Assembly: GCF_030463565.1 (NCBI RefSeq)
Contig: NC_134644.1
Location: forward strand, 112,905,684-112,969,683
Reading direction: 5' to 3'
Origin: Pelecanus crispus
Lineage: Eukaryota > Chordata > Aves > Pelecaniformes > Pelecanidae
Length of the DNA stretch: 64,000 nt
How positions within the stretch are numbered: position 1 is the stretch's first letter; every line of letters starts with the position of its first letter. The notes under the pieces are model-generated. The model was not told where the DNA came from and ran no database searches. It was given only the letters and a program-made list of their open reading frames with translations. Both the position numbers and the translations under genes were made by a program. Shown in pieces: positions 1-62,801 of this stretch.

Positions 1-1
1 G

Positions 2-196
2 TGTTATGGAATTTGCACAGCTGATACGGATGGAGGAGTAGACGAACATGAGGCAGCTAGAAAGGAAAATGGTGATCGGGAGCTCACGGATGAAGGCAGT
101 GAGGAAGAACAAGAGGAGGAAAAGAACGGAAAATATACAGAACTTTCAGATGGAGAGCTTAAACAGAAAGACATAATGGAAAAGAAAAAAGACTAA
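2..196 (+). CDS. 3'-terminal coding exon of an unidentified gene (partial, acidic C-terminus)
   Basis: The frame is open from base 2 to a TAA at 194-196 and gives 64 residues that enter from outside the window. It starts with a Cys-rich stretch (CYGICTADTDGG) and then becomes strongly acidic and lysine-rich, with an EEEQEEEKNG run and a KKKD end. There is no membrane segment or recognisable domain. It is read as a terminal exon because the codon usage looks coding, the stop is followed by a long AT-rich 3'UTR, and good polyadenylation signals lie 2.1-2.7 kb downstream. Such charged tails end many membrane and chaperone proteins, but I do not recognise the gene. The 5' exon boundary is at or before base 1 and cannot be seen. 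It lies on the same strand as the transglutaminase gene about 25 kb downstream. Confidence 0.6.
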   Translation, partial: CYGICTADTDGGVDEHEAARKENGDRELTDEGSEEEQEEEKNGKYTELSDGELKQKDIMEKKKD

Positions 197-25427: not shown

Positions 25428-25434
25428 ATGGAAG
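25428..25434 (+). CDS. Transglutaminase exon 1, coding part (start codon)
   Basis: ATGGAAG is followed at once by a strong donor, GTGAGT. The seven coding bases end in phase 1, exactly what exon 2 needs, and a tiny coding part in exon 1 is typical of transglutaminase genes. The Kozak context is good (A at -3, G at +4). Spliced, the protein starts [14 protein letters not shown] longer frame reading into this exon from 25272 runs past the donor and is not the gene. Confidence 0.75.
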
Positions 25435-28400
25435 GTGAGTGTTTTGAAACTTTACTATCACTTGACTCAGTACTGAAAGTGGAAATAATTAAATGGTCAG
25501 GTGTAAGGACAAAAAAAAATTGTACATAATGCTGTGTGGAATCAAGTCTAGGGATGACTTCTATGGTTTAGATCTTATTTGTGGACTTAGTGAGAAAGAA
25601 AAAAAAAACAACTTTTGAAAAAAATCTTTCATTTTATGAAGTAAAAAGACAGCTATGGAGAAGAATTGGTGAAACAACAGCCAATTCTGAAATTAAGAAA
25701 GAGCATGGAAAAGAATAAGTTTTATTTCCAGCATAAACTTCAAAGTACTAGTTTTCAGTATTCTCATGCTAGAAGCAATTATTTCACAATGGATACCTGA
25801 AGTATTCTCTCTGGAATGAAGGCAAAATATGAATTGATAGAGAAAACCCAGTGACTGGTATTGAAGGCAGGGTTTCTACCAGAGAGAGAAAACCAGTAAG
25901 AGATATGAAATTGATTAGCCTTTAGTATTTTCTCTGAGCTGCCTTTGCTTACGAAGGCAATTGTTAGCTCCTTTGTAATCCAGTTGTGATAATTAACTCC
26001 GATAAGCAAACTGTGGGCTGACTTTAGAGAACTTCCCTGGGAAACATGTCATATCTCAACTTCCTGATGTTCCAGTTCAGCTGGATTAATGAGTGGATGA
26101 AATGTAGTTGTCTTGGTTTATAAATGCCTCCAGAAGTTGGGCGAGGACCTATCAGGTTCTTTCAGTGTTCTTGGCCACAGGAATTCATCATGTGTGCTAT
26201 AAGCACTTCTAATCCTTTCTGTTCAACCAGAACACTTTGCGTTATGGTTGACAACTGTCATTAAGATATGAGATTTTCAGTTCAGTTCTGTTACTCTTTC
26301 TTGTCAGCAGGTATGATGCATTCATGAGCAATAATGATGTAATGCTTTGCCGTATTTTGTGGTTGTTGTTGACAGTGTGCGTATTTTTAACATGGGTAAC
26401 GCCCAGGTCTGCATTTATCTACTGATCTTTGCTGAAGAGCTGAATGACCGATCCATTACCAAACTTAAATGCTTAGATGAAAAATGAAATTATTTTGGTT
26501 CAAGGAAACAAATCAGAAAAAGCTGCTTCCCCTCCTCCCCCCCCCTTCTCTCCCAATTCATTTCAGTTATGATTTACTTCAGGATGTGATCCTGGGAAAA
26601 TCTACTGGTTTGTGTTAAAAGTGTCCTGGTCCCAAGGGCTTAGCCATGAGTCTCCTTTTATGTGGATACACCCTTGGTCCTGGATGGGAAAAATTAGTTT
26701 CCCCTAAATACCAACTCTGTATTCAAATTTGTGCCAATATAGTTAGAGAAGTTGCATTGTTTGGTTGTTCTGCAGGCTTAGCGGGACCAAATTTAACCCT
26801 TTAGAATTAAAATAATATACAAGACTTTGTAGTTCAGTAAGCCCAGTTTCCAAAACTGCTGAGAATCTGTGGCTCCCATTGTCTTCAATTAGAGTGAAGC
26901 ACTTTTGAAAATAAATAGTTGTATGCAAATAAGTAAAAATGAGTGTTGCCACCCACCCTTCTGGCACCAGGATCATAATTACCCCTATGAAATGACTGAT
27001 ATCCAGGCAGGATGCCTAAGGAGGGATCAGCTAAGATTTTTGTTAAGCTAATCATAGCACTTGGGATAGATTGTCAGCGTTTTTTTGAATGTCACACTTT
27101 GTGAGTATTTCCTTCTTCATTAAGCTCCTCAAAGATGTCTGCAATCCTTTTATGACTTTGGGAAATGCAGATTGAGACATTTACAAGCACGTTTAACAGT
27201 ATTTACAGTTTTGGGGGGATATTGTTTTGTATCTATTTTGTTCATAGCTCATTTGGAGTGCTACTTAAGCTTTCAAACACATACATTTGTTATCAAATTT
27301 TCTATTTATTAAATTTACCCTATTATTTTATTACTTGTATAAAAAACAACTCTTGACCGATAGCACACGCAAAATGTTTGCTGTCTAGCTGTGGTTGAAA
27401 AGTAACTGTCTGTAGACAGCATGTTGTAATGTGGAGAGAATATTACAATGAAAAATCAATTTTTCAAGTAGAGATACTAATATCGTCCCTCAGCATCAGG
27501 TATTTATAAAGCAAGAAGGCACTATATAAAAGATGTGAAACTTGTAGTACAGTGTTTTAAATCAAAGCGTTATACAAGTTTCCACCTGCATGCTAGGGAA
27601 GTGGTGAACTTGTAAGGATACTTTTATGGATGTATGTCTCCATCTCAGTGTTGCTGAATTTTGAACGAACTCTTGAATGATTTTTTCAAAACAGTTATCT
27701 CTTTCATCATTATCTCTTCTTTCATGTAATCTTGACTTCAGCCAATGATGGGAACTTAATTTTCTCCTTTGTGTTCCTTTCTCCATCCTTCAGTCATTGA
27801 GCTGGGAGAAGTCGACCTGAACTGTCCTTCCAACTGCCAAATTCATAATACCCATTTCTTTGGAACTGACAGACAGATAATAAGGAGAGGGCAAGCCTTC
27901 AGCTTTTATGCTCGCTTCCAAAATCGGGAATGGGATGACTCCGTGGACCAGGCCGTTTTCACCGTGGAGACAGGTACTCACTCCCAAAGTCTGTGTAGTC
28001 TTTCCCAGTCCTTTGCTGGTAAGTAATATTTCCCATAACCTTCAGTGACAAATAGTGTCTACTCATTCATCTTCTGTGTGAAGAAACTACCTTCCCCAAA
28101 CTCAGGCAGTTCTGCTAACTTGTAAAATTTTCTCACTCTGCTACAGAAGTGACAAATGAAAAAGAAATCCACCCTTGGGAGCTTTGCATTGCAAATAATG
28201 GCTAAGCAAATTACTTGCCTTTTACATGTCCTTTGTTTAGTCTGATTGACGCTGTATTTATTTTCCTGAAAAGGCCTCAGACCCTGCGAGTCAAATGAGA
28301 CGAAAAGTACCTTCCCAATGGGCAGATGTCTAGATCAAACCTGCTGGAGTGCTTCCTACAAAATTCATCAGCCAAAATGCATCAATATCAGTGTGTTTCC

Positions 28401-31400
28401 TCCCTCCAACGCCTGCATTGGCCGTTATATTCTCAATATGCAAATCACATCTTGTGGTCACACATATCAGCGATGTCTTGGAGATTTTTATGTTCTTTTT
28501 AACCCTTGGTGTGCAGGTATGAACTCTAGTGATGATCAGATAGTTTTAAGAAAAATGCTAGGGATGAGTAAAAATGTTCAACATATTCATTACTTAGCTG
28601 GTAATTAAGGGATGAAGTCACAGAAACAATGAGAAACAAGGAGGGATCTTATTTTGTTATTTTTTATTTTTTCCTCCAAGTTCAAGACTGTCTCAAGCCA
28701 GTGTTTTGATTTGTTTTCTTAATGGTAGTAGGGATGTAGTGTAATTTTTTTCCCCCACTTTTACACTGTCTTGACAGGACAAGAAACAATGGGCAGAAAC
28801 TGAAATACAGGAGGTTTCCTCTGAACATCAGGAAACACTTTTTCACTGTGAGGGTGACTAAGCACTGGCACAGGTTGCCCAGAGAGATTGTGGAATCTCC
28901 ATCCTTGGAGATATTCAAAAGCCATCTGGACATGGTCTTGGGCAATTGGCTCCAGGTGTCCCTGCTTGAGCAGGGGGGTTGGATCAGACAACCTCCAGAA
29001 GTCCCTTCTAACCTCAACCATTCTGTGATTCGATGAATTCTGTGGTATCGCCATGAAATAATATAGTACAAATACAAATGAAATTCTGTAGATCTGGTTC
29101 TGGTAGCAAGCAATTCTGGAGTCTGTAGGACCTTGCCAAAATTATTACATGGCAAATATTTACATTATCTGTGCTTTTGATTTGATCAAAATCAAATACC
29201 CAACTCTAAGTGCACAGTGTTTGACTCCTAGAACAGCTTCACGTAAAGATAAATTGCAAGCTCTGTAATTCAGGTGTACTACACCAGGGAGAGACTTAAT
29301 AAAGATAATATCTAGCTGTAGAAATGAATTGTCTGTGAATGTTTAAAGAGCCTGCACACTTGAACGTGTTTAAAAGTATAAATCAAAAATAGGTAGGAAA
29401 AGAAAGAGGGATCCAGTGAAGTAGAAGATACAGAAGTGCTAGAAATGTACATATTGTCTGACTGACAGCTCTTCATCTTTCCCAGATGACCCTGTATATA
29501 TGGACAATCAGGCCCACAGAGAAGAATATGTTCTGAATGAACATGGGATACTGTATGAAGGAGTTCACAAGCATATTACCTCTCGACCATGGCACTTTGG
29601 ACAGGTACTTTTTGAAGATTTGTTCAAACGTGGATGTCATCCATATACAGATAAATGAAGTGTTACCCATATTTTTTCAGAAATGCATGTTATGTTATGG
29701 AGTATGAAAGGCTTTTAGGACCAGTCCAGACTATGCATGCACAAAACAAAATGTTTAGGAATCTCACTGTAGCCTAAAAAACTGGAAGGAAGTTTTCTGT
29801 AGTAAAATTAAGGAAACTGCAGAATGTTCTTGGAAAAGGGGAAAGAGAATGTTGTGGTTCTGAAGGAAAATTATTCCATTGGTCAAACATAAGCAAAAAT
29901 GACATATTTTTCCCTTTGGTTTTCCTTCAGGCAGATAGAAAAAACTATGCAGACCACTAGGAGCTAAACTTGATTAAAAAAAAAAAAAAATGCAGGGGAG
30001 GAGAGACGGCATCTCATATACATGAAAAAGACTGGATTGACAAGAAAGGAACTTTATCCATGTCAGAATATCATGATGCCTGTGTTATCTTGTCTTTTCT
30101 TTTAGTTTGAAGAAGGGATTCTGGATATCTGCTTGAAAATCCTAGACATGGGTGCAAGTTACCATCAAGGTTCTGATCGCGACCATTGTTGGCGCAACGA
30201 TCCTGTGCATGTCAGCATGGTGGTAAATCACATGGTAAGACCTGTAGTGTGCCTGACTTCTGAATAGGTCGGGTCATTATATTCATTATATTATAAAAGG
30301 ACAAATTGCACCGTATTCTAACATGGTATGAGTAGCAGGGAAAATCTTTTCTGTGCTCAGATTCACAGGAAAAACTAACTTGCAATACTAATCTCTGATT
30401 CTGTGATATGCTTAGGATGTGAAGACATGGTCAGCTATTTTAAAAGGTTGTTTTTCTTTTCTCTTTCTAGATAAGCAGCCATACCACTAACAGTATCATG
30501 AAGATTCCAGAAACCAATGATTACCTGAAAGGAACAAAACCATTTTCCTGGAATGGAAGTGTCCCTATTCTTCAGCAGTGGTACAACGGCAGATGCAGGC
30601 CGGTCAGATATGGGTACTGTGGGTCTCTTGCTTCAGTAATGTGCACAGGTATGATATTTCAGTCTACCCTTACCTAGTTATCCAGAAAGGAAGAGAGGAA
30701 ACCAGGATCAAAAACCTCTGACCCTAAAAACACCTGGAAGAATACTACTCACAAGCACTTTACTAGAAAAGAAATGGAATATTTTTCTCTTGTTATGATA
30801 CGGCATGGCTCCTAACATAGTATTTATTATCAACCTACTGCTTTCCTATACAGCCTGAAGAGCAAGTAGAAAAGCAGTACTGTCTCTTCTGTGACCTTTA
30901 TATCATGCAGCTATCACTGCTACAGCTTTTATTAAAACACAGAGCAAGTGCAGCATCGTGGAGCCAAAATTTATCCTTTGGCTGAGGTTTGAAGGATGAG
31001 AAAAAATGCTAAGTTATGAACAGGAAGAAGACCTCTAACAATGTCTCCTCCAACACATAAAAGCAGCAGGCTACCATCTTCTTTTACTGTAAAAGATGAG
31101 ATAACAGTGAACTAAACTCTGCAGACAAAAAAATAGAGTTCCAACTTTATACCATTTATTTACTGAATCTGCCTCTACATTGAAGAAAATTAGATTGATA
31201 TTCCATAGATGAATCTACATGTACTACACCTTGTTTACAAAAAAAAAATATGGTGTTTTATTAATGCAGGATCAGGTTTGTTATTTCTGAACTTAGAACA
31301 GATCTGGTTTTGTTTTGGTTTGGTTTTAAGCTGGAAAAGTAACAAGCTGTTCCTTTCTGCTAGGCTCCCTTCTGACTACTTTTCAACCACTAAAAAAGAA

Positions 31401-34400
31401 GTTTGGAAGACAGAATCACTGCATCCCAAATATTGCCTCCTATCCATTGTGTTTATATAATTGCAAAGTAGAATATAGGAGAATTAGTTATAAAATAAGT
31501 GAAGGATTTGCTTGATTAATTACCGTTTGTAATGACTTGTGAATATTTTTTTCCTTACAGTGATGAGGTGTTTGGGTATTCCAAGCCGTGTTGTCACGAA
31601 CTTCCGTTTTCCATGCTCAATTGAGAATCCCCTTGCTATCAGTGAGATTTTTGACTGTACTGGAAAAAACCTGTGTGGTAAAGACAAACTATGGTAAATA
31701 AGAAATAAACAAGCTCTTTTGGTTTTGTTGACAATTAAATGATAAAGAGACTAGTATAAAACTAGCAGATTGATGTAACTCTTTCTTTGGTGTGGCAAGG
31801 CTGTTCAGTTTCCTAATAATGCATTTCAGAACCATGAAATTACTGAAGAGGCAGCCTGTTCAATCTGCATTTTCAAAAAAGAAAAAAAAACACCCACTTG
31901 TGAGAATTGATGCTACCTGCTTATCCTTCTCAGTTGAAAGAACAAGGCCATCAATCTTAGTAGCTGTAAAAATATTAAGTGGATCATGAAATGCAAGGGA
32001 AAATTTATCACAAATTAGGACTATTATCTTCAGTCATAATAACTTGGTTGATAATTAGGTTTTCTTCCTGAGGTTCCTTATCAAGGATTGCTTCATTCTT
32101 GTAAACCTTTCAATTCGTGTTCATGTAACTATGACATTATCACTCGTCATAGCGGAATTCCATGTTTTTACCCTTGGCCTGTATGTTCACAGTTTCACTG
32201 CACCAGAATTTTGTTTGTATCCAGGTCTCATCTGTGAGAGATTGTAATGAATTTTCTGCCCTTTCACATGCCAAAAAGATGAGGTCAAACTGAAGTACTA
32301 AGGGAATGAGGATCTTATTTTAGCACAAAAGACTTAAGAGTTTATTCTTTGTTAAGCCATTAAAAAGACTACTACAGTAAGTGACTTTCCTCTAAAGAAC
32401 CAGAAGGAAAATGTAAGGGAAATAAACCAGTTAAACAAAAGAAGAGTGCTGGCACGTTATCAACTAAAAAAAGCAGGGCTATACAAAGAAAGTTTTTGAT
32501 CAGGTATGCAGGGTCTGGAACAAATTTCCAGTCCAAGTGACATAAAGCAAAACAAACAACTCCTGTCCCCAGACATCATTAACAGTGTTAAGACAAGTCT
32601 CCAGTTGATTAAAAAGTTATCTCTGACATGGTTTTCCTCCATTGTAAGGCATTGAACTTGATGATCCAAGAGATGTCGTTAATCCTATATTCCTGCATCC
32701 CACAGGCGATATCACTGCTGGAATGAATCTTGGATGGCTCGCAGAGACCTAAATCAATGCTGTGGTGATTGGCAGTGTCTGGATCCGACACCTTTGGAAA
32801 CAGGCAGAGGTAACTGTTTCCTACAACTATAATGGTTTTCCTCAGCTTATGTTGTTGAGTTTCTCTACTACTCAGGTTACAACCTGTTATAACATTTTTG
32901 TTATCTATTTTGTTAGGTTCAGCTTGCAGCGGTCCTACATGGGTTCGAAGCATCAGAGAAGGGGAACTGGACTTGGACTATGATGGTCATCATATGTTTT
33001 CTCGAGTAAACTCAAACTATGTTGGCTGGCTTTCCCAAAACAATGCCAAAAAAACAAAATTTTTCTGCGACGCTTGGCCATGTGGACAACATCTGATCAC
33101 CAAGAGTGTTGGCAGTGAGCAATTTGAAAATATCACTGGGGCTTACAAATATGAACTAGGTATGATGAAAAGTCATTAAATGGGTTAGAGGAAATTTTAA
33201 ATGCTAATCATATAAAATCATCAATGTAGTCTGCCTTGTGTTAAAATAAGTAGAACAATCTGAAATTGTCTTTTCTGAGAAAGAGGAAGATGCCTTTCTG
33301 TTCAAAGACCTTGATTCTTAAACTTCTAGACATATTTAGGTAATTCAATCAAAACACAGAGTAATTACATCCACTTAGGATAGGATAGAATAGGATAAGA
33401 TATTTCAGTTGGAAGGGACCTACAACGATCATCTAGTCCAACGGCCTGATCAATTCAGGGCTGACCAAAAATTAAAGCACGTTATTAAGGACATTGTCCA
33501 AATGCCTCTTCTTAAGGCACTGACGGGCATGGGACATTGACTACCTCTCTAGGAAGCCTGTTCCAGTGTTTGACCGCCCTCTCAATGGAGAAACGCTTCC
33601 TAATGCCCAGTCTAAACCTCTCCTGGCACAGCTTTGAACCATTCCCACACGTCCTATCACTTGATCCCAGGGAGAAGAGATCAGCATCTCCCTCTCCACT
33701 TCCCCTCCTCAGGAAGCTGTAGAGAGCAATGAGGTCACCCTTCAGACTCCTTTTCTCCAAACTAGACAAACCCAAAGTCCTTAGCTGCTCCTCACAGGAC
33801 ATGCCTTCCAGCCCTCTTAATACCACTATTTGTATGCACACATTTTGGTCTCACCTGTACAGTAGTTTAAAATATTAACAGACTTTAAATAATCTAAAAA
33901 CCTCTAAATTCTTTTAAACCGAGGATTAACTTCTTGCTTGTTGCTTCTTGTAGCATGCCTGTCAGAAAATACGCTTAGTTACTAAATTCATGTATTATTA
34001 GGGTATTCTGCTGTTCTTACTTTGGGCTACTGATCATTGATTTTCATCTTCCAGTAGTAGGGAGAAATTCAACCAGCAAAATTGCCTGAAGGAATGAAGG
34101 GTGGATTACAGTCGATTGTAAAATTGCAAGCTCTGGTGTTTTGGTTTTTTTTTTTTTTGGTTTTTTTTTTTTTTTGAACAGGAACAAAAAAGAAAACAAT
34201 TGATCCTTTCTTTGTTTGAATGGTGTATTTTGCCTTTGGAGAGACATGGTAGCATTTCATATTCACCCTAACCCTTATAAAGAATTATATTTTTATATAT
34301 AGTTTATATATATTTTTATATTTTATATTTTATAAAAAACTATATTTTTATAGTTTTACACTAACTGTACATTTTGAGGTTTACATGACCATTTTTAAAT

Positions 34401-37400
34401 TTAACTAATACAATTAAAATTTTTTTTTAATGTTTTTCTGGGATATTTGTTTTCTTCTATGCATTCAGACTACTGTATCTTGTGTTTCATTATCTGGTGG
34501 ATTTGTTCTACACCAAGCTACTACATTAGGTTTCAGGAAGGAGGAGGAAGAAATTTAATGATCTTTATTATTTGGGTAGATGAGACTTCTTGTACCTCCA
34601 GCAGATTCATCATGTATCTTTTTCAACAGGATCTGTGAAAAACAAAGAAGCCTATTACCGGGCTTACAGAAGAATTCACCCAGGGTACTGCAATGCTTCC
34701 AACTGTCATATTGAGAGAGAGTTATCATCTCTGAAAAACCCATTTTTGAGTGACTCTGGTATTAACATGAGGTTAAAGATGGCTAACTGCCCAATGTATG
34801 GTGAAGATGTCCAACTGCACTGGCTACTTGAAAATTTGCGTAGTGAAAACAAAACCCTGAAGTTTAATTTGTGTGCACAAATAGTGACCTACAGTGGTTG
34901 CCCAATGGATCAATTTTGGAAAGACAGTGTGAATGTCACGTTGGGTCCAAGGGAAGGTAAGAAGGTGAATTTGTCTAATACCCTTTTGTCCACTGGAGCT
35001 AGTTTGTTTTTTAGGATTAGTGGAGACTTCCTAATAGTGGTGGGAAGTAAAATGAATACAATGTTAAATATTCACAGCTGAATTCACTTTAGGGTCATCA
35101 CTCAAAAATCAACACGGTGTTAATAGTAATGCATAGTGGCAGGTAAATCATAAGTCTTTCCTTAATTTCTCAAGGCTTAGAGATTCTTATGATCATTTAA
35201 AAACTTGTTTCTGCTAAAAGTTCAATTCTGGATTCTATATTCAATAGAAAGATAAAATTGCATCTGTCTATCAGAAAAGCAATTTGTTTCCTTTGGCAAG
35301 AAGATATTAGCCAGTGTAAAACACTTGTTTTGAGGACTAAAGTAATTATTTCTAGATATGCCATATGCTGTGAAGTGCAAAGGTGTATCAGAACATAAAC
35401 ACTTGTTTTCATGGTTAATATCTTTTTCTGGAAGAAAAGTGATCCCTTTAATTAAAACACATCATTATAAGACAAAATTTCATACCTAATATAAACATTC
35501 TGTTTTACCAAGCTTTAATTTGCCTACATTTGAATTATTGCTTTAAGAATTACACTGGAATGAAGGTTTCCAAATTTTGAAGAATAATAATAATGATAAT
35601 ACTACTAATAATGAACTTCCTTGTAAATGCACTGATACAGTTATATTAACTGAAAACTTTGAAGCTGGTTGTTGAAAGTAACAATGTATCACCCTAAGCC
35701 AGGAAAAAATCATGACTGTTTTCAAAGATGCAGTGATAACTTAATATTTAATTAAGTCTTTGTGAGTGCTGGTTAAACTTTAGGAGGAAGGAAAGTGGAA
35801 ATATTAGCCAAAAAATCAGAAAAAAAAACCCCAAAAATGTATTTGTTTTACAGTGAAAAAAATTCCACTCTGTATATCATATAGTCAATATGGACCTTAT
35901 CTCTGTGATCACAACATTATGAAAGTAGTTGCTGTCTCAGACCCAGAGTGTGGAGAAGTTCTGATGGTGAGCAGGGATATCGTGATCAACAGGCCACCAG
36001 TTATTGTAAAGGTAAAGAACTTTAACTGTGGGATTTGTGATCTAAGGAACAGATTTATGGACTCTTATTGGCCACCTCCTAGGTACAATGCTGATAAACT
36101 TGAAATTCTTTTTTTCTTTTCTTTTATTGTATTTTTTATTTTAGCAAGATCAGTGTGATTTTAAATGTATAACAGTTGACTCTAGAGTGGTGTATAGAGA
36201 TCACAGAAGTAAATCAGAACAAAATGTGTATGAATAATCCTTTTTTTTTTTTTCCTTACATTTATTTACTTCATTGTTAGTTTGTAAGGGTTACAAAATG
36301 TAAAATGTGGGTTTTTTTATTTTCTGACTAGCTACTGAGCCAGCCCAGGCTGAAAGTACCATGTACTGCAGAAATCTCCTTCTGCAATCCTCTCCAGGAA
36401 GATATGAAGAACTGCGTAATGACGTTAGAAGGCTGTGGTTTATTCAAAGAGCCGATGACCATTGAGTAAGATCATCAATTATTTAAATGGGGATAATATT
36501 GGGGGTTGAGCAGGTTTTGAGGAAGACAACTGTTCTGATATTTTTGCTGTGTAGGATCTGAACAGGACTTTTTGCCCCTTATTACTCTGAGACTCCATTA
36601 AAAGCCTCAACCCTCTTGAAACTGATGGGTCATTTAAAGCTGGCAAGATATGCTGCTGCTTCCTTTTTCTCAAGATTTAATTTAAGTGTGTGTTCCAAAT
36701 TTCTGTCTGAAAGGGAATGCACTCTTTTCTTTACAAGAAATTCTAGCTGGGTCCCCCATCACTTAAAATATTATTGAGTTTATAATAGCATTCTTCTAAA
36801 TATTCATGAACTGGCACCACATAAGTGAACAATTAGAAAATGACAGTGAGAAATAGCAATATGCATTCTAAGCTCATAACACGTTAATCACAGGAAGCTG
36901 GAAACTTCCAGGATGCTATAACATCCTAGGAAAAGTACCTGTTCATTAATATGCATTGCTGTTCTTCATGACAAGGAGAACTGACAGAAGAATGACTATT
37001 TTTGAGGGGAAGAAATTAGGAATAGTTCTTACTAAATAATAACGAACTCGATTGCACAAAGCTGCCCGATCCAACTTAGACTATTGGAAATGGAAAGCAG
37101 TAAATAATACATTTTTGAGGCAGAAGGGTGCTGCGTTTTTGAAGAATTCAAGACAGTATCATGAACAGGTTTCCAGTTCCAATTACAGAACCGACTATGG
37201 GAGTTTTCCAAATCTTCTTTTGGGACAGAAGTTGTTACCATGCTTTGCATAACACAGAATGTGTTTTTTTGGAGGAAGGCAAGAATAAGAAAGTTGTCGT
37301 AAGAGTTTGTCTCTGAAAACATGTCATAGCAAATCAAACCTAATTGTGTGCGCTCATCTTGTAGCACTTCAGGTCTCTGAGCTACCCAGGCTCCTAATTC

Positions 37401-39119
37401 TTTTCCTTCTCTCGGTCCAGTTTGGGAACGCTGGCATCCAACCAACAGGCACGGACCATTGTGGAGTTCACACCTTACAGGCTTGGCAGCCACCGGCTCC
37501 TGGCCAACTTCGGATGCCACAAGTTTGCCTACTGCAAGGGATGTGCCAAGGCCGAAGTGTGTTGTCCCGCAGGCCAGAACGGTGCCCTGCCCGTCAGCCA
37601 GAACGGGTCGCTCCCAGTGTGTGAGAATGGCTCCCTCCCCGTGAACAGCTCTGGGCCTGTCCCTGTGGCGGACCCTGCATTCAACTCCATGTGTGAATAT
37701 ATATGTATCCCAGTGTGCAACCCAAACTGCAGTGCAGGGGGTCAGCCTGTGTACGACTTCGTCTACCTCCCTGCGGGCCATCCCTTATGCAACTCCATCT
37801 GCAACCAAGGCTTCAATCCAATCGCCAATCCTGGTTTCGACCTGGGATGCGATCCTGGCTTCCGTGTCATATGCGAGACCGTGCCTCCCGCCACGTGTGG
37901 CCCGATGCCTCCGTCCATGTACGGCTCCATGCCTGCCCCGGCATCTAACCCCGTGTGTCCCCCTATGCCTCACGTGGTGTTTGAGACGGGTCCTGCTCCC
38001 GTGCACCAGCCTGGAGGCGGAGGGGGGCCAGCGTCCTATTCTGTCTCTGTCCCCGCGAATAATGCGGTGAGTGCCCTGCTGACCCACTTCATGGCTGGCT
38101 CTGCTCCCGCTGCGGCAACCCAGGTAGTCCCTACCCATATGCCCGCTCCGCCATCCCATCCCGTGTGCTCTCCAGCAGCCCACGCTGTCGGCAGTCCCAT
38201 GCCGCCACCAACTCCCCTTTCAGTGCCTGCTGCCTCCCTCTCGCACATCGTCTGCGGCTCCGCGCCCTCTCCCGCCGCCCAGCCTCCGTGTGGCCCAATG
38301 GCCACCCTGCCCGCCCAGCCCCTCGGTGCCCCAGTAGCCCATGGCGTGTGCTCCCCGGGCCCCTGCCCCGCGGCTTCCCCGGCGCCCCACTCCGCCACCC
38401 GCAGCGCCACGCCAGCAGGGCTGCAGATGGGGAGCGCGCCGGCGGCCCGCTCGCTGCGCTCCCCGGCCCCCCGCCCCGTGGCGCCCCCGGCAGCCCACTC
38501 GCTGTGCTCGCCAGCCCCCCGCCCGGTGGGACCCCCCGCGGCCCACTCGCTGTGCTCCCCCACCTCGGCCTCGCTGGGGGCCGCGGCGGCCCGCCCCACC
38601 AGCTCGCCTGCCGCTCGCCCCGAGGACTCGGCGGCGGCCTGCACCCCCTGCCCCCCGGCCCCGCGCCCGCTGGCAGCCACCACGGCCCGCTCCCTCTGCG
38701 CCCCGGCCTCTCGCTCGGCCTCCCGGGTGGTGGGCACCCCGGGGTCTCGCTCAGTGTGTGGCCCCCAGTGGGGGCCCTCCTGCGACACCGCCGCTCGCTC
38801 AGGCTCCCACTCCACGTGGGCTCCCGCCTCCCGCTCACTGTGGAGCCCCGCAGGGCGCTCGGGCTACTCCCCCTTGTCCCGCACCGGCTACGGCGCGCTC
38901 ACGCGCCCTCCATACAGCTCCTTGTCCCGCTCCTCCTCCAACACCTTGTCCCGCTCGGCCTACAGCACCCTGCCCCGCTCCACCTCTCCCCCTGCCTATG
39001 CCACCCTCCCGCGCTCTGGGGCGCGCCCCTCCAGCAGCACCCTGCCCCGCACAGGGTCCCGCACGCCCTGGAGCCCCGGCAGGAGCACTCTCACCTATTT
39101 CAAACGCAAATACCTGTAG
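25428..39119 (+). CDS. Transglutaminase-family protein with a long Cys/Pro/Ala/Ser-rich C-terminal extension (13 exons)
   Basis: Exons: 25428-25434, 27794-27973, 28274-28516, 29486-29604, 30106-30234, 30471-30648, 31561-31693, 32706-32809, 32917-33159, 34630-34956, 35854-36011, 36332-36465, 37421-39119. They join into 3654 coding bases, 1217 residues, without stop or frameshift. Intron phases (1,1,1,0,0,1,2,1,1,1,0,2) follow the usual family gene plan. Domains in order: N-terminal beta-sandwich (about 3-144), catalytic core (about 144-460), beta-barrels 1 and 2 (about 490-699), then a low-complexity tail (about 700-1217). The triad is seen as C276, H333 and D356, with W253 in the oxyanion position. 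The family makes gamma-glutamyl-epsilon-lysine crosslinks using calcium, but here the Cys motif is GYCGSLA and the calcium loops are changed, so activity is uncertain. Most members stop near residue 690. I cannot say which paralogue it is (a TGM3/5/6/EPB42-type relative or a bird-specific member). Confidence 0.88.
27794..27973 (+). CDS. Transglutaminase exon 2 (N-terminal beta-sandwich, first half)
   Basis: Acceptor TCCATCCTTCAG, donor GTACTC, phase 1 to phase 1, residues about 3-63. It carries the family hallmark [12 protein letters not shown], which corresponds to the RRGQ.F motif of the first beta strands, and ends at the conserved V-E-T-G junction. Two cysteines (NCPSNC) replace the residues that usually precede the His-His segment. 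Confidence 0.88.
28274..28516 (+). CDS. Transglutaminase exon 3 (N-terminal beta-sandwich, second half)
   Basis: Acceptor CCTGAAAAG, donor GTATGA, residues about 63-144. The landmarks [14 protein letters not shown] and [10 protein letters not shown] match the family's F.LGR, IGRY.L and LLFNPWC. It holds eight cysteines in 82 residues, unusually many, and two N-glycosylation sequons (NET, NIS). Confidence 0.88.
28770..29043 (+). mobile_element. CR1 LINE 3' fragment (in transglutaminase intron 3)
   Basis: The plus strand encodes the CR1 ORF2 C-terminal signature ([20 protein letters not shown]) and then the CR1 3'UTR with CATTCTGTGATTCGATGAATTCTG at 29020-29043 (8-mer-like tail). It is 5'-truncated, as usual for CR1, and lies in the sense direction of the host gene. 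Antisense frames of 97-157 codons here are shadows of the repeat. Confidence 0.85.
29486..29604 (+). CDS. Transglutaminase exon 4 (start of catalytic core)
   Basis: Acceptor CATCTTTCCCAG, donor GTACTT, phase 1 to 0, residues about 144-183. [15 protein letters not shown] and SRPWHFGQ are near-consensus for the linker into the core (R.EYVLN..G..Y.G and RPWNFGQ). This is the only core exon without a cysteine. Confidence 0.9.
30106..30234 (+). CDS. Transglutaminase exon 5 (catalytic core)
   Basis: Acceptor CTTTTCTTTTAG, donor GTAAGA, phase 0 to 0, residues 184-226. [14 protein letters not shown] is an almost perfect copy of the conserved FE..ILD.CL.ILD helix, and [11 protein letters not shown] matches the R.DP.YV segment that precedes the first calcium loop. 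Confidence 0.9.
30471..30648 (+). CDS. Transglutaminase exon 6 (nucleophile Cys exon, altered motif)
   Basis: Acceptor CTCTTTCTAG, donor GTATGA, residues 227-286. W253 in SWNGSV is the oxyanion tryptophan. The nucleophile motif reads [14 protein letters not shown] with C276 encoded at 30618-30620, where the family has YGQCWVFA; Gln is Tyr and the invariant Trp is Gly. The stretch that aligns with calcium site 1 reads SSHTTNS and lacks the usual Asn/Asp ligands. Confidence 0.9.
31561..31693 (+). CDS. Transglutaminase exon 7 (catalytic core)
   Basis: Acceptor TTTTTTCCTTACAG, donor GTAAAT, phase 1 to 2, residues about 286-330. [14 protein letters not shown] is diagnostic of the family. The next segment, where calcium site 3 lies in known members, reads [12 protein letters not shown] and lacks most of the expected Asp/Asn ligands. 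Confidence 0.9.
32706..32809 (+). CDS. Transglutaminase exon 8 (catalytic His and Asp)
   Basis: Acceptor CTGCATCCCACAG, donor GTAACT, phase 2 to 1, residues 330-365. The catalytic His is H333 (32713-32715) in [10 protein letters not shown] and the catalytic Asp is D356 (32782-32784) in [11 protein letters not shown]. Both motifs are well conserved, which contrasts with the altered Cys motif of exon 6. Two adjacent cysteines (QCCG) lie between them. Confidence 0.9.
32917..33159 (+). CDS. Transglutaminase exon 9 (end of catalytic core)
   Basis: Acceptor TATTTTGTTAG, donor GTATGA, residues 365-446. [11 protein letters not shown] and FSRVNSN match the family's EGD...YD and [26 protein letters not shown] corresponds to the segment ending KYPEGS; the Pro-Glu that supplies a calcium-site 2 ligand in known enzymes is Glu-Leu here. 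It contains one sequon (NIT). Confidence 0.88.
33368..33830 (-). mobile_element. CR1 LINE 3' fragment (in transglutaminase intron 9)
   Basis: On the minus strand the sequence encodes the CR1 ORF2 end ([44 protein letters not shown]). Its 3' end on the low-coordinate side passes through the usual GGTCCCTTCCAACTG-type segment to a degenerate TATCC/ATTCTAT tail (33370-33400). It is oriented against the host gene. Confidence 0.88.
34270..34365. repeat. AT-rich simple repeat (TATATTTTATA-like) in intron 9
   Basis: Interrupted ATATTTTTATATA units with short palindromic stretches lie just upstream of exon 10, after T-runs at 34146-34175. The stretch is probably slippage-prone. No function is apparent. 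Confidence 0.5.
34630..34956 (+). CDS. Transglutaminase exon 10 (core to beta-barrel 1)
   Basis: Acceptor CTTTTTCAACAG, donor GTAAGA, residues about 446-555. The exon covers the linker after the core and the first strands of beta-barrel 1. It is less conserved than the core, but [12 protein letters not shown] and [13 protein letters not shown] keep the family's G.D.......N.S...K......AQ spacing. It has five cysteines and sequons at NAS, NKT and NVT. Confidence 0.85.
35854..36011 (+). CDS. Transglutaminase exon 11 (beta-barrel 1)
   Basis: Acceptor TTTGTTTTACAG, donor GTAAAG, phase 1 to 0, residues 555-607. It holds [14 protein letters not shown], matching I...I.YSQY..YL of the family, and the closing strand [13 protein letters not shown], which corresponds to RDI.L..P.L. 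Confidence 0.88.
36332..36465 (+). CDS. Transglutaminase exon 12 (beta-barrel 2)
   Basis: Acceptor TATTTTCTGACTAG, donor GTAAGA, phase 0 to 2, residues 608-652. [20 protein letters not shown] and LEGCGLF match the family's FSNPL.E....C...EGSGL, the start of beta-barrel 2. It contains four cysteines. Confidence 0.88.
37421..39119 (+). CDS. Transglutaminase exon 13: end of beta-barrel 2 plus about 518-residue tail
   Basis: Acceptor TTCTCTCGGTCCAG, 1699 coding bases to TAG at 39117-39119. The first 47 residues (652-about 699) finish beta-barrel 2: [20 protein letters not shown] and [10 protein letters not shown] match the family end (LG.L.P.....I.F.PY..G...L.A.F...KF). The frame then runs on with no intron or stop into a tail dominated by Pro, Ala, Ser, Gly, Cys (about 25) and, near the end, Arg. 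The tail has N-terminal NG(A/S)LPV units, a Cys/aromatic segment, a Pro/Ala-rich middle with 16-residue repeats and an Arg/Ser/Tyr/Leu 8-residue repeat, and ends FKRKYL. Lys is almost absent and Gln sparse, so it does not look like a typical crosslinking substrate. The DNA is very GC- and CpG-rich, unlike its surroundings. Confidence 0.85.
37575..37670 (+). repeat. Four 24-bp coding repeats (8-residue units, NG(A/S)LPV)
   Basis: Consecutive units [24 protein letters not shown] and SSGPVPVA lie just after the barrel ends. Three of them carry an N-G pair; two are N-glycosylation sequons (NGS), and a further one (NSS) spans units three and four. Synonymous differences between units show they are not very recent copies. 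Confidence 0.75.
38442..38561 (+). repeat. 48-bp coding repeat, about 2.5 copies (16-residue units)
   Basis: The units [32 protein letters not shown] and a third beginning AAHSLCSP start at 38442, 38490 and 38538. The 16-residue period is two 8-residue steps. Flanking sequence holds decayed versions ([11 protein letters not shown] and similar), so the array was probably longer. A variable copy number between individuals would be expected. Confidence 0.75.
38862..39058 (+). repeat. 8-residue Tyr/Leu/Arg/Ser repeat array at the C-terminus
   Basis: About seven units fit the pattern small-[YS]-x-x-L-[SPT]-R-[STP]: [40 protein letters not shown], then two longer ones ending AYATLPRS and SSSTLPRT. 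The array is basic and serine-rich and precedes the final KRKYL. Confidence 0.75.
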
Positions 39120-40640
39120 CGGAGAGTAACCTGGGGAGAAGCCGAAGCCAGGAAATGAAAGCCCGCGTGCAGATGCTTTGAAAGAGGTTAGAAATAGGGT
39201 GATGAAAGGCAGCGTGCGTACTCCTGAGTATTTATCCAGGCATTTGAGATGTGCCAGAAAGCAGGCTGCTAGCTGACCACCGAGGGATGCATTGATGTAA
39301 TATTTATGTGTCTTGAGATACGGTACAATGGAAGTGACAAGTGGACGTGTTCCCGGTGGAACCGTCGTGACAATTGTTGCACAGTGCAGGTAATCAGACT
39401 TACTTGCTTGGTCAAGCTGTTTTATAAATTATGTGCTTTCACTCTCTCTTCTCTTGAGTTCTTGCAATGCGCGTTTCTCAGATCTCCCTGGGCTACAGCG
39501 CTCGCAGGAAATCTCTCTCCCTGCATGAAATGTACTGTCCTTGGGACGCTGCAAAGAAATGGCAGCAGAACTGCCTTACATCTCGCCTAACAGACACTGG
39601 GCCCCTGAGTCCTGGTGTTGAGGTGGCTCAGGTCAGTTCTGCATGCACTCCTATTTCCTTAGTTATGAGGCAATGAAAACTGTGGAGGTCATGGAGTAAT
39701 TCAATCGTTACAAATCAACTGAAGAGTTTAAAAAAAAAAAAAAAAATTATAATAAATTTAGTATTACTACTCTTGATGTATTACTGTTCCAGTATCAGAA
39801 ATCCAAAGGTCAGATTAGAAAGGCTGCAAAACTTGATGAATGATTAGTACCAATTTATTGGCTTTCACAACTGAATGGTTTTCATGTAGCCTATTTCAAA
39901 CGTTTTCTCATATATATTGCATGCATTTAGGTTCACGGGAAAAGCTCTCATTCCAAGGCTGTGCCTTTCTGATTCAATATAGCTAGGAAACTTCCATCAC
40001 CAGACCTGAACTAGAGAAGGAACTATGATGTTATCCTTTCTTTCCAACACCCAGTCCTCCCAACTGAAAGGTTAAGAAGGTGAATGAAAATATATTACGT
40101 CTTCTTCAGATAATTGGTGTTGTTTCACTGCTAACCTTCTCCCAGTGTTTTAGGAATAGAAATCATGCATTGTCATAATGGAACTGTCCCCAGATTTTGG
40201 ATTTGCTCACAAGAATTGTGGATTTACTGACAACACCTCCCATCCCTCCATTATTTTCCTCTAGTGCTCCATTATTTTTAGTAGCAAGTGTTAGTGGGGT
40301 TTTGTGGTAAGATAATTTTGCTGGTGCTGCAGAATCTTCAGTCATGTAGCAATAGTATTTCAGTAGTATCACTGTAGTTCACACCCCTATGCTCTGTGAT
40401 GAGATTGAGTAACCTTCCGGGGATTTTGAAAAGGTGTGGTGTCAGATGGTAGCTATGAACTTGCCAACACTAACAACTACATAGCAACTCCGAGTATGGT
40501 AGAAGAAATATTTGCCTGGATACTGTAGTAGAGTTGTCATAACTCAGTGACTTGTTTTTTACACAGTTTCAATAGTCTCTGTTAGGTACTTGCTGAGAAT
40601 TTCTTTGCCTGACTGACAATAAAATAGAAATTTAAAAAAC
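39120..40640 (+). other. Probable 3'UTR of the transglutaminase gene
   Basis: After the TAG the base composition falls back to the local AT-rich level within about 300 bases. Candidate polyadenylation signals are AATAAA at 39751-39756 (630 bases past the stop, preceded by an A-run at 39731-39746) and AATAAA at 40618-40623. I cannot choose between them from sequence alone. Confidence 0.5.
39751..39756 (+). terminator. Candidate polyadenylation signal AATAAA
   Basis: First canonical hexamer after the transglutaminase stop codon. A second candidate lies at 40618-40623. Confidence 0.4.
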
Positions 40641-46245: not shown

Positions 46246-47580
46246 ATGAGTGACCAAGTAACTGCCCCTAAGGGCAAGGAAGTTCTGTTTGATTTTTTTG
46301 ACAAATACAATGCCCGGCCTTCTGTGCCTGGCATAGATTGGGCACAGAACAGTTGGCACAATTTGCAGAGTGTCGTAGGCCGAATGGTTGCTCTGCGGGA
46401 GGACGCTCGGGTCCGCTCTGGGAAAGGGAAAGCCATTGTTTGTGCCGTGCTCAGCGGCAGCGGGGGCGAGAGACTGCCCTCATGCCACTGAATCTCAGAC
46501 CATAGAATCTCTCCAAACCCTGGTTCAAACCCTGCGGGGACAAGCTGGCAAATTAAAAAAAAACAACTGAAAGAGGAAAAGGACCAGGTTAAAATTTTAC
46601 AAGCTGCTCTTAAGGAGCAACTGCTTGTGAATGCCGTCTGTGAGGAGGCACCCCATCAAACTATTTACCCTATTAATGACCTGCAGGCAGTGAGAGAAAA
46701 ATTAGAGAGACCAGAACCACCCTCGCTGCGACCCTTAGTTAAAACCAAATACAGTTACAAAGATGAGCAGGACCATTTTCCCCAAGTTACAACTAAAGAA
46801 ATCCCCTACACTGCCACTGAATTGGTGAAATTGAAAAAGGATTTTGGCCGAACCCCAAAGGAATCAGAGACGGATTATGTGTGGAGAGTGTCACTATCAG
46901 GAGGGGATCAAATTTTGCTCAGTGAAAGGGAGGTGGAAGGATATTGGGGGCCAGGACTATTCTTAACTACCGGAGACCACCGAGCCCCCTGGTCTCCTAC
47001 CCAGTGAGCGGCTTATTGGGCAGGAGGGTTGAACCCCCTGGAAAGGGGGGATCCTCTCGCAATTATGGGAACTATTGATCAATTGGTGGAAAGTGTGCAG
47101 AAAGCGGCTTGCCTGCAAATGATGTACGATTGGAAATTAGAACCTAGGCAGGAATCCCCAATGGTGATGCTGGTGGATCCCGAGCGAATGACTCCCCTTA
47201 TAAGGGGACTCCCCGACTCATTAAAACCAATTGGGATTAAAATACAGGGAAAAATAGAGGCAGCTTTAGAGGGATTTGCTCCTGATCAGCCTCGCGGACC
47301 CCCAGATAGGAAAGTGTGGACTTGGGGTGAAGTAGCCCAAGAGTTAATCAATTATGGGCGCAAATATGGCCCCGTTGGCCCTTCAGCCACCAGAAATCTA
47401 AGGCGGGCCGAAGTTAAAATGGTCCCGCGCTCTGGTGATGCAAAAAAGCCGCCCCTCATAAAACCATCTCGGGGGAGGGACTTTCCAAAGAAGCGCAGTA
47501 GCTTGTGGGCAAAGGGCTGGCAAAAGGGGATCCCACGTGACGTAATGGATGGGCTGCCAACAGACAAGTTAAGCTGGTGA
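46246..47580 (+). pseudogene. gag-like retroviral pseudogene
   Basis: The start codon at 46246 follows a 150-base leader. The frame is open to 46491, then continues in the second frame up to a nine-A run at 46555-46563 and returns to the first frame downstream, so there are at least two frame breaks. A TGA at 47005-47007 interrupts the next section; the following frame (47029-47580) reads on in phase and has the composition of a retroviral capsid C-terminal part ending in a basic region. The assignment rests on position behind an LTR and leader, and on resemblance to avian endogenous gag proteins I have seen. It is dead as a viral gene. A section of 126 intact codons and one of 183 remain open. 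Confidence 0.7.
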
Positions 47581-47741: not shown

Positions 47742-48580
47742 GGAAAAAGAAGACAGTTTTTTGTTGATCCAAGCCTTGTAGTATGAGACAACACAGCTAT
47801 TATAACTCTCTACCAAATGAAGTTCACAGAGGAAGGTTGTCCAAATCTGTCATTGTGGATTGGTTTAACTACTAAATTTTTTCCTTATAAGCCATGGATA
47901 CCCTGAAACTATGAAGCTATCACTTATCATTTTATGTGTATGGCAACCTCTCTGATGTCTGAAAGGGATTTTATGTCAATGAACTATGAAAAGAGCGAGG
48001 ACTTTCAAGCAAATGGAAGTGTTCATGCAAATACAAATAATAAATACAACTAAGTATAAATGCTCCTCTGTCCTAAATACATTCATCTCTCAGTTGCTTT
48101 CATTCAAAGATTGGCCTGTACGCTGCTTTTTAGCAAGAGGATGTCTGCTGGAAGATTTAGTTTGTAAAGATGTAAATTCTTTGAGTTGCTTTTAGATGTA
48201 ATAGTTTCTCTAACTTGGCTGATAGAGCTCTAGAAAGCTGACAGAGGAAAATAATTGTGAAAAAATTCCCCCAGGTATTGTCTTTCAAGATGAAATAATT
48301 TTTATAGTAATATATATATATATATTTTTCCAACTGCATAAGATGTAAAATTCAGTAGAAAAATGTTAATTGTGTATAAAATTTCCTCACAGCAGCAGTC
48401 TGCTGTCATTCAGTCAGTGCAGCAGAGAGTCTCAGTCATGCACAGAAGGTTAACAGATGCATTCAGCTCCATGGATCCTGCTACTGCCATGGCTAAAGGA
48501 TGAACACACACAGGTATTCTGGACAGAGTGGTGCCATATCTGGAGAACAGGCAAATTTGGGGTGTAATGACTTGAAATTG
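47742..48580. other. Intergenic, no gene seen
   Basis: AT-rich sequence holding a short (TA)n run at 48311-48325. The first 40 bases extend a frame that starts inside the retroviral remnant and ends at a stop near 47784. Confidence 0.45.
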
Positions 48581-49447
48581 ACACACCAGGAGGACGAGAT
48601 GTCATCCGAAGGTACCTGGACAAGCTGGAGAGGTGGGCCTGTGTGAACCTCATGAGGTTCAACAAGGCCAAGTGCAAGGTCCTGCACCTGGGTTGGGGCA
48701 ACCCCCAATATCAATACAGGCTGGGGGATGAAGGGATTGAGAGCAGCCCTGCGGAGAAGGACTTGGGGGTACTGGTGGATGAAAAGCTGGACATGAGCTG
48801 GCAATGTGCGCTTGCAGCCCAGAAAGCCAATGGAATCCTGGGCTGCATCAAAAACAGCGTGGCCAGCAGGTCAAGGGAGGTGAGTCTGCCTCTCTACTCC
48901 TCTCTGGTGAGACCTCATCTGGAGTGCTGCGTCCAGCTCTGGGGCCCTCAGCACAAGAAGGACATGGGCCTGTTGGAGCGGGTCCAGAGGAGGGCCACCA
49001 AAATGATCCGAGGGCTGGAGCACCTCTCCTATGAGGCCAGGCTGAGAGAGTTGGGGTTGTTCAGCCTGGAGAAGAGAAGGCTGCAGGGAGACCTTATTGC
49101 GACCTTTCAATACTTAAAGGGGGCCTACAGAAAAGATGGGGGCCATCTTTTTAGCAAGGCCTGTTGTGACAGGACAAGGAATAATGGATTTAAACTAAAG
49201 AAGAATAGATTTAGACTGGATATAAGAAAGAAATTTTTTACAGTGAGGGTGGTGAAGCACTGGAACAGGTTGCCCAGAGAGGTGGTAGAGGCCCCATCCC
49301 TGGCAACATTCAAGGTCAGGTTGGCTGGGGCTCTGAGCAACCTGCTCTAGTTAAAGCTGTCCCTGCTCACTGCAGGGGGGTTGGGCTAGATGACCTCTAA
49401 AGGTCCCTTCCAACCCAAAGCATTCTGTGATTCCATGATTCTATGAA
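48580..49447 (+). mobile_element. CR1 LINE 3' fragment with 235-codon ORF2 remnant
   Basis: An open frame at 48643-49350 encodes the C-terminal part of the CR1 reverse-transcriptase protein: [49 protein letters not shown] and [18 protein letters not shown]. The 3'UTR follows and ends in GTGATTCCATGATTCTATGA at 49427-49446, the CR1 tail. The copy is 5'-truncated within the reverse-transcriptase domain. The frame is still open, so this is a fairly young copy, but without endonuclease it cannot move alone. Confidence 0.92.
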
Positions 49448-50600
49448 ATTATTTGGGAATCTGTATTCAAAGTCAAGGGGTGGAAGTATTAAATAGTTTA
49501 CCTTCATGTTATTTTGGTTATATAGAAGAGCTAAGTAGCTTTAGCTTATTTTTCCTGTTTGTTTTGTTTCAGTAGAACAACTAGCAGTACTAAGAGTACT
49601 AGTAAATAATACTAATAGTACTAATAAAAGTAAGGTATAAGAAGTGCTGAACTTGTGGAGGATAATTTTCTGTTAATTTCAAAGCCTGTGATTTATTGAC
49701 CAAGTTTTTGTTAAAAAGTTTAGTTCTACTCAATTTAGTCTTGAGTTTGAAAATGAACTATAATAGGGCTAAGGCACTGATGACCTTCCTTTCACAAGCA
49801 TAGATGCATACATATAACTGTATATTGGAGCTAAAATCTCCTGCATACAAATTTTTAAAAGTTGCGAGATTATAGTATCTCTTGTAATACAAGGAATTAT
49901 TTGACTTCTCTGCAGTGGAGTATTGCCTCAGCAGTTAACCTCGTCTTAAAATTGTAGAACGTATTTTAAAGCAGATAATAGAGAGTGTACTTTTTTGTTG
50001 TTGTTGTTATCAGTTCATTTTAAAGCACTTCAGAGCTAAGAACATGGAAATTTCCAGCAATACAGACTGGATATAGTGCAAATTGTTTGTCATCTTAGGA
50101 CTCAGGTGTGAATAAGACAAAATTTTACAACCTGTACTTAACACAGCTAGATTTTTCTGCATTAATCAAAAAATGGAAGAAGCAAACTTAATTTGGATTC
50201 CAAATTTTAAGATGATTTGCTAAGCTTTTATGTGAGCACAATGGTTTTGTCAAGAACTTAAAGTGTAAACTGTAGCTGATAAACACCTATTATTATCCTC
50301 AAAAAAAGGAATTCTTAATGAGAGGTCTGAGCACTGCCCCATTATTTAGCACAATGTTGTGTTTGATTAAAAGATAATGACATTAGGCAAATAACGATTT
50401 GGATTTGAGTTGCTATTACAAATCAGGATACCTGTCTTATAAATCTGTGTTAAGTGCACTTAAGTAACATAAAGTTTAAGATAGTAAGCATTATCTTCGT
50501 CTGTCTCACTGGGACTGGAAAGTGCATTTAAAATACAGCAACTGGTTAATTATTTGACCGAGTCCTATGTGATGTAATGCTACTATTCACCACATGGCTT

Positions 50601-50665
50601 AATAAATCCCTAGTAAATAAAGTGTGAATGCTAAATAAATCCCTAGTAAATAAAGTGCGAATGCT
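50601..50665. repeat. 32-bp tandem duplication
   Basis: Units 50601-50632 and 50634-50665 begin AATAAATCCCTAGTAAATAA and differ at a single base (GTGTG against GTGCG), with one A between them. The near-identity suggests a recent event. Confidence 0.8.
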
Positions 50666-62501: not shown

Positions 62502-62801
62502 GGGCCTCTGTCGACCAGGCCCCTAAACAGCCCAAAGTCTGCTCTCCAGAAGTCCAAGGCAGCAGTTCTGCTGACTTCTCTGAGAATCAAAAACTCTTAT
62601 CATTTCGTGATCACTGTGCCCAAGACAGCCTCCAACCATCACATCACCCACAAGTCCTTTCTCTGTTCATAAACAACAGGTCCAGCAGGGCACCTTCCCT
62701 AGTTGGCTCACTCACAAGCTGTGTCAGGAAGTTATCTTCCACACATTCCAGGAACCTCCTAGACTTTTTCTTCTCTGCTGTATTGTATTTGCAGCAGACA
62801 T

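Follow-up and report, generated by a model that had tools for sequence, protein, structure and literature searches.

The window, a stretch of 64,000 nucleotides from Pelecanus crispus, begins with the final coding exon of TMX3 (positions 1..196, forward strand; CYGICTADTDGG..MEKKKD and a stop), which was located by tblastn and is in frame to its stop. When a human TMX3 C-terminus was searched against this window alone, 28/66 residues were identical (E = 8e-12), and a longer TMX3 query matched only the start of the same exon (E = 0.032), together with three chance-level matches. Downstream, on the same strand, lies a transglutaminase gene. Because TMX3 is the published neighbour of TGM9, this gene is, judged from its sequence and position, very probably the sauropsid TGM9 orthologue and not an unnamed oddity. 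On the opposite side, towards DSEL, a gene with one long coding exon, the window extends for a further 25 kb; outside exon 13 it contains no open reading frame longer than 275 amino acids. A tblastn search for a second transglutaminase with the spliced protein (E = 0.01) returned 12 matches, each of them to one of its own exons. No Rfam family at gathering score and no tRNA were found in the window, and Pfam at 0.01 returned nothing in eight other stretches, the TMX3 exon among them.

According to PMC11152450, the published gene order is TMX3-TGM9-DSEL, and TGM9 occurs in sauropsids and platypus and is related to the TGM3 group. The gene described here is like published TGM9 in its locus beside TMX3, and the best solved relatives of its spliced protein are TGM3 (1.9e-139) and TGM2 (3e-136). 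The same source reports TGM9 mRNA in the chicken egg tooth, and TGM9 protein from egg tooth as well as from a feather proteome; it proposes that TGM9 is a transglutaminase important for the egg tooth of amniotes and that its loss accompanied that of egg tooth and claws. The cornified-appendage context suggested in the initial annotation is thus supported by the synteny of TMX3 with TGM9.

Twelve coding exons between 27794 and 39119, all on the forward strand, join in frame at GT/AG sites without a stop and encode a protein of ~1217 residues. A Pfam search with the spliced protein returned Transglut_N (1.1e-25), the core domain (4.8e-10) and Transglut_C (2.3e-32), each exceeding its curated cut-off. 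Members of the TGM2-7 branch have 13 exons (PMC13073648); here, exon 1 is a candidate only (25428..25434, forward strand; ATGGAAG followed by GTGAGT, with MEV at the junction), unproven, proposed from phase and donor pattern, and one of five matches in that pattern scan. Exon 2 (27794..27973), defined by splice sites, frame and the Transglut_N match, encodes the N-terminal domain and is followed by exons 3 (28274..28516), 4 (29486..29604) and 5 (30106..30234). Exon 6 (30471..30648) is the active-site exon with the catalytic Cys, exon 7 (31561..31693) contains RFPCS in place of the NSAHD loop (TG2 His305, calcium site 3) and exon 8 (32706..32809) retains the catalytic His and Asp. Exon 9 (32917..33159) has, at its end, a Leu at the position of one calcium site 2 Glu (TGM3 E443), and beta-barrel 1 begins in exon 10 (34630..34956), in which the other calcium site 2 Glu (TGM3 E448) is replaced with Asn. 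Exons 11 (35854..36011) and 12 (36332..36465) precede exon 13 (37421..39119), which starts at the acceptor gtccag/TTTGGG at 37421 and comprises the end of beta-barrel 2 (37421-37559), a C-terminal tail (37560..39116) and a TAG stop (39117-39119).

That exon 13 continues past beta-barrel 2 and across the whole tail without a stop is confirmed, and the open frame has no stop in 573 codons. Counted from two Cys that follow the last beta-barrel residues, the tail comprises 519 residues and ends in FKRKYL, in agreement with the in-frame extension of ~518 residues that the initial annotation had placed on an intact transglutaminase gene. Over the tail, the other two forward frames contain 5 stops each and the reverse frames 5, 9 and 11. 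This frame was free of stops in 2/2000 dinucleotide-preserving block shuffles, and some forward frame was in 9/2000; as the tail DNA has a GC content of 61-76% (CpG o/e 0.65-0.77), openness by itself is modest evidence for coding. Much stronger evidence comes from the 3-base periodicity, which reaches 7.74 compared with a mean of 0.67 and a maximum of 2.84 in shuffled sequences (n = 300). On the shuffles and the periodicity, a chance open reading frame in GC-rich DNA was rejected, and the extension looks translated, as had been proposed. Neither AATAAA nor ATTAAA occurs within the tail, and the first AATAAA after the start of exon 13 lies at 39751..39756 on the forward strand. A donor-like GTGAGT is present inside the tail at 38067. 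Exon 13 matched no Pfam family at E = 0.1 and no PDB sequence at E = 1, and a single-sequence structure model of this exon, with a mean pLDDT of 34.9, is of very low confidence and uninformative either way.

The tail is a periodic array with a spacing of four and eight residues, in which Cys is in register first and Arg later. Its dominant residues change from Pro/Gly/Val/Cys/Asn in the first part, through Pro/Ala in the middle, to Ser/Ala/Pro/Arg in the last. The earlier description of a Cys/Pro/Ala/Ser/Arg tail was roughly right, but Gly (8.3%) exceeds both Arg (5.2%) and Cys (4.8%), and the composition shifts along the tail. There are 25 Cys, 10 Gln and 2 Lys in the 519 residues; 5 of the Cys fall within the last third, which is 179 residues long, and the first 340 residues have 6 Arg and no Lys. 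Among residue and period tests, reported only where fewer than 10/2000 shuffles reached them, Cys is in register at 12/13 positions in tail residues 1-140 and at 9/12 in residues 171-519, and Arg at 23/26 in the latter segment. The periodicity is present in all three frames and therefore stems from DNA-level repeat growth, so that the register is not taken as proof of selection at the protein level. In the first part of the tail, copies 24 bases apart show an agreement excess of 0.30 and 0.42 at codon positions 1 and 2 and of 0.14 at position 3, but this difference is not clean in the other two parts. Across eight partly overlapping pairs of repeat units, 19 codon differences are synonymous and 36 non-synonymous, with non-synonymous changes outnumbering synonymous ones in 7/8 pairs, so that the letters of the repeat are not tightly held.

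Alignment with TGM3 and TGM2 indicates that the catalytic triad is retained (C272, H330 and D353 in TGM3 numbering), as are the equivalents of TG2 Trp332, Thr360 and Glu363. The oxyanion Trp position (TGM3 W236, TG2 Trp241) holds a Glu in the alignments with both relatives, however, and the motif YGQCWVFA of TGM3 reads YGYCGSLA around the catalytic Cys, with Q271 changed to Tyr and W273 to Gly (Q276 and W278 in TG2). The position of TG2 His305 is occupied by Cys, and the loop of calcium site 1 in exon 6 is also changed. Of the 13 presumed calcium-ligand positions, 2 are kept and 11 changed, one of them by a mild Asp to Glu replacement; Asp303 and Asp324 of this list are given in PMC6683118. 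Trp241 is described as essential for oxyanion stabilisation, strictly conserved in the active human enzymes and absent from inactive band 4.2 (PMC13073648). Over exon 6, TGM3 and TGM2 are identical at 32/60 positions, whereas this gene matches them at 22/60 and 23/60, respectively. The loss of constraint is not uniform: in exons 4, 5 and 7, the similarity of this gene to TGM3 and TGM2 is much the same as that between the two. The enzyme looks impaired, with a damaged active site and probably without catalytic activity, and the working crosslinking chemistry envisaged in the initial annotation is not supported. The intact triad, unlike the situation in band 4.2, leaves room for some chemistry to persist.

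The fold has 41 Cys at aligned positions, compared with 6 in TGM3 and 19 in TGM2, and 29 of the 41, in columns aligned to TGM3, are found in neither relative. It also contains 27 Gln and 33 Lys. With its 10 Gln and 2 Lys, the tail itself would be an isopeptide substrate of poor quality and has neither the ends nor the repeats bearing Gln and Lys that mark substrates of the cornified envelope. Disulfides fit it better than isopeptide bonds. Hence, of the self-incorporating structural protein that had been envisaged, the extension and the cornified setting stand, but its crosslinking chemistry and its incorporation through isopeptide bonds are not supported.

These features are, somewhat better than evenly, best explained by a retired transglutaminase that serves as a disulfide-linked cornification protein with a 519-residue tail. 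A stop near residue 698 would have been lost, and a unit of 24 bases (eight residues) would have expanded and diverged to give the tail. In parallel, the enzyme would have eroded, keeping its triad while the transition-state Trp, other active-site residues and most calcium ligands changed, and the fold gained the many Cys seen in the alignment. The protein could then act as a structural component of hard cornified appendages such as egg tooth, feather and claw. Disulfide bonds would join its fold and the first, Cys-spaced tail segment to Cys-rich keratins and corneous proteins, and the Ser/Arg segment would bind other matrix proteins, perhaps once citrullinated. Isopeptide chemistry would be left to other members of the family, TGM3 and TGM1 among them, and hardening may proceed via the protein's own cysteines rather than through enzymatic glue.

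Several known proteins share parts of this arrangement. EPB42 (band 4.2) is likewise a transglutaminase fold kept as a structural protein without the oxyanion Trp, but it lacks the catalytic triad (PMC13073648), whereas this gene has the triad, many Cys and a repetitive tail. Extra sequence on the same fold is also found in TGM1 and factor XIII A, where it is N-terminal (PMC13073648) and not, as here, C-terminal, repetitive and 519 residues long. EDCRP and mammalian KRTAPs of hard appendages are likewise built from short Cys-bearing repeats, of 7-9 residues in EDCRP (PMC4423139). The CCDPCQ repeats of EDCRP come with Gln and Lys (PMC4423139), while the tail has almost no Lys and is attached to an enzyme fold. 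Its Cys content of 4.8% is far below the 29-38% of feather EDCRP, which counts against a structural disulfide reading. In cornifying cells, S100 fused-type proteins such as cornulin and scaffoldin have a folded domain followed by a C-terminal one of low complexity (PMC12821399), but their domain and their locus, the epidermal differentiation complex, are different. Neither the periodic tail array nor the impaired enzyme was found described in the open-licence literature, although database records of chicken and finch TGM9 may already include the tail. The terms carboxy, C-terminal, active site and low complexity are absent from the main text of PMC11152450, which, as far as consulted, contains no mention of a TGM9 tail or of lost active-site residues; the sequences in its trees were trimmed to the Transglut_N-Transglut_C span, which would remove such a tail.

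It is unlikely, yet conceivable, that TGM9 is still an active crosslinker whose tail targets it to the cornified matrix or fixes it there. The retained Cys, His and Asp and the conserved equivalents of Trp332, Thr360 and Glu363 would agree with this, as would the co-localisation of chicken TGM9 mRNA with calcium-requiring transglutaminase activity reported in PMC11152450. It has to be set against the Glu at the oxyanion Trp, the Cys at His305, the altered calcium ligands and a tail that is poor in Gln and nearly without Lys. The co-localised activity in chicken could come from other enzymes. Ranked behind active crosslinking, and improbable as well, is the retention of Cys-His-Asp for another chemistry that does not depend on calcium, such as hydrolysis, deamidation or thiol exchange. 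Kinship of the fold with papain-like cysteine proteases (PMC13073648) and the survival of the triad and the Glu363 equivalent despite the other losses are consistent with it; however, there is no positive sign of another activity, and the catalytic Cys, surrounded by many gained Cys, may persist for other reasons.

A non-coding minisatellite was rejected as a full account of the tail but was retained as a rival, to which we assign the lowest probability: the tail would not be made, or would be a neutral by-product, either because translation runs on into a GC-rich minisatellite that has expanded or because the GTGAGT at 38067 serves as an alternative splice donor. Such an origin is compatible with the donor-like site, the repeat growth visible in all frames, the GC and CpG values and the 36/55 non-synonymous codon differences between repeat units. 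Evidence against it comes from 573 codons without a stop, the strong 3-base signal, a first AATAAA that lies beyond the tail and the codon-position pattern of the first tail part, even though the other parts are not clean.

Extending the retired-transglutaminase reading to a sauropsid lineage is more tentative, and we place it a little short of even. TGM9 would there be a pseudotransglutaminase turned structural, with a tetrapeptide/octapeptide tail that grades from Cys to Arg on a Cys-loaded fold; other enzymes would account for the egg-tooth activity, and the proposed link to amniote hatching would be structural, not catalytic. If TGM9 cannot crosslink here and bears a disulfide-capable tail, the role of the gene and the reason for its pattern of loss would need rethinking. 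It would then be another vertebrate transglutaminase, besides band 4.2, that turned structural, and an enzyme of cornification would have become one of cornification's own building materials.

The spliced transglutaminase, taken without the low-complexity tail that exon 13 encodes, matches Transglut_N, the transglutaminase core and Transglut_C in Pfam. A PDB comparison returned 19 distinct sequences at E ≤ 0.001, with the highest score for TGM3 (469 bits), followed by TGM2 (459 bits), and with 304 bits for band 4.2 (EPB42). The C-terminus of TMX3 is encoded by window bases 1–196 (+), in the same orientation as this gene (28 of 66 residues identical to a human TMX3 query, E = 8e-12). Passages of Sachslehner et al. 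(2024, PMC11152450) place the TGM9 locus between TMX3 and DSEL, and the adjoining TMX3, the family match and this published location therefore identify the gene as very probably TGM9, an assignment by synteny and family membership. No DSEL was seen within the 64-kb window. The same passages report TGM9 mRNA and protein in the chicken egg tooth, and TGM9 protein in a flycatcher feather data set.

Twelve exons with GT/AG splice sites (27794–39119) are spliced without a stop into 1214 residues, or about 1217 predicted residues if a candidate two-codon exon 1 is added. The initial annotation had proposed that the last exon runs in frame into a tail of about 518 residues, and this open frame is real: exon 13 (+) starts at 37421 behind a canonical acceptor, completes the second C-terminal β-barrel and continues for 519 residues (37560–39116) to a TAG at 39117–39119. 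Stops were absent from the tail frame in 2 of 2000 dinucleotide block shuffles, and some forward frame was stop-free in 9 of 2000; given the GC content, the length of the frame is unusual, not extreme. The 3-base periodicity is far outside chance (7.74, with 300 shuffles reaching at most 2.84). A well-matching donor-like GTGAGT lies at 38067 within the tail and could give a shorter isoform. The end of exon 13 (window 37421–39750) is CpG-island-like: GC content is 0.58 at the end of β-barrel 2, 0.61 over the tail's first third and 0.75–0.76 over its remainder, with CpG observed/expected ratios of 0.65–0.77 in the tail, 0.57 immediately after it and 0.14–0.20 in two flanking stretches.

The tail is composed of 95 P, 76 A, 74 S, 43 G, 27 R, 25 C, 10 Q and 2 K, among others, with a net charge of +18. 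Residue identity exceeded block shuffles at all 14 lags of 8, 12, … 60 (z = 3.2–9.7); lag 4 gave z = 2.2, and all remaining lags up to 60 gave at most 0.3. Tetrapeptides such as VCNP, GFNP and GCDP make up the first part, and octapeptides such as RSAYSTLP the last. A register scan (nine residue sets, four periods and four regions, reported only where fewer than 10 of 2000 shuffles reached the value) found 12 of 13 Cys in tail residues 1–140 in one class modulo 4; in residues 171–519, 9 of 12 Cys fall in one such class, and 23 of 26 Arg likewise in one. Direct-repeat spacings are multiples of 12 bases in 15 of 20 cases and of 3 in 19 of 20. The periodicity is visible in all three frames, and a 24-base unit has therefore expanded at the DNA level; the transglutaminase fold, run as a control, had no such periodicity. 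In the first part, agreement between copies 24 bases apart is higher at the first two codon positions than at the third, which is compatible with selection on the protein; the picture is mixed in the middle and last parts. Eight partly overlapping pairs of repeat units show 55 codon differences, 36 of them non-synonymous, and the repeat letters thus drift.

The fold itself has changed in character, from a calcium enzyme towards a Cys-rich protein. At TGM3-aligned columns it carries 41 Cys versus 6 in TGM3 (TGM2 has 19, counted in its own alignment), and 29 of the 41 are found in neither relative. Identity in exon 6 is 32/60 between TGM3 and TGM2, and 22/60 and 23/60 between this gene and TGM3 and TGM2, respectively; over exons 5–8 the corresponding values are 94/182, 76/182 and 78/182. 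Such a drop is small or absent in exon 4 (18/39; 18/39 and 19/39), exon 5 (21/43; 19/43 and 20/43) and exon 7 (19/45; 18/45 and 17/45). For residues 480–690, this gene shares 74/205 with TGM3 and 60/208 with TGM2, above the 53/204 between those two.

When the sequence was aligned to TGM3 (TGM3 numbering), the catalytic triad C272, H330 and D353 was found to be retained, as were the equivalents of TG2 Trp332 and Thr360. W236 (TG2 Trp241) is replaced with Glu, Q271 with Tyr and W273 with Gly, and a Cys occupies the position of TG2 His305. Only N393 and D324 are kept among 13 positions taken to be calcium ligands, and D303 shows a further, mild change to Glu. D309, outside this list, is Ser here; it is named together with D303 and D324 in passages of PMC6683118. 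Portions of a 2026 review (PMC13073648) describe strict conservation of Trp241, Trp332 and Thr360 throughout the active human enzymes, state that oxyanion stabilisation requires the Trp241 indole, and note that band 4.2, which is inactive, lacks Trp241. Against a dead enzyme, the main published observation is that TGM9 mRNA co-localises with transglutaminase activity in chicken, as stated in part of PMC11152450. Excerpts of PMC12821399 report that the egg tooth is enriched for TGM3 and the beak for TGM1 and TGM6, so alternative sources of that activity exist.

Elsewhere in the window, two adjoining ORFs of 171 and 190 aa (46492–47580, +) look by eye like gag-type sequence of an endogenous retrovirus; Pfam at 0.01 gave no match for them. 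Pieces of ORFs resembling CR1-type LINEs of birds and reptiles were likewise recognised by eye at 48571–49350 (+), at 60638–63126 (−) and in TGM9 intron 3 (28740–29033, +), with no Pfam match for those stretches that were tested. An apparently recent tandem repeat (33-base unit, 2.1 copies, 94%) lies at 50597–50666.

In the consulted parts of the open-licence papers found to name both TGM9 and transglutaminase, no mention was found of a tail or of lost active-site residues in TGM9; the trees of PMC11152450, as described there, used sequences trimmed to conserved domains. The tail may already be annotated in database records of chicken or finch TGM9. Together, the tail and the active-site changes are a variant on a known family, described from one species. 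The many Cys added to the fold, and the fixed Cys spacing and near absence of Lys in the tail, would fit a disulfide-linked matrix protein, which we propose as the working mode of fold and tail together. Hard appendages rely heavily on disulfides, according to passages of PMC9916842 and PMC11816140, and the chicken egg tooth, in which PMC12821399 in part also records TGM9 enrichment, has high PADI1 and expresses Cys-rich proteins. More speculatively, the Arg-rich end of the tail might bind partner proteins or be citrullinated.
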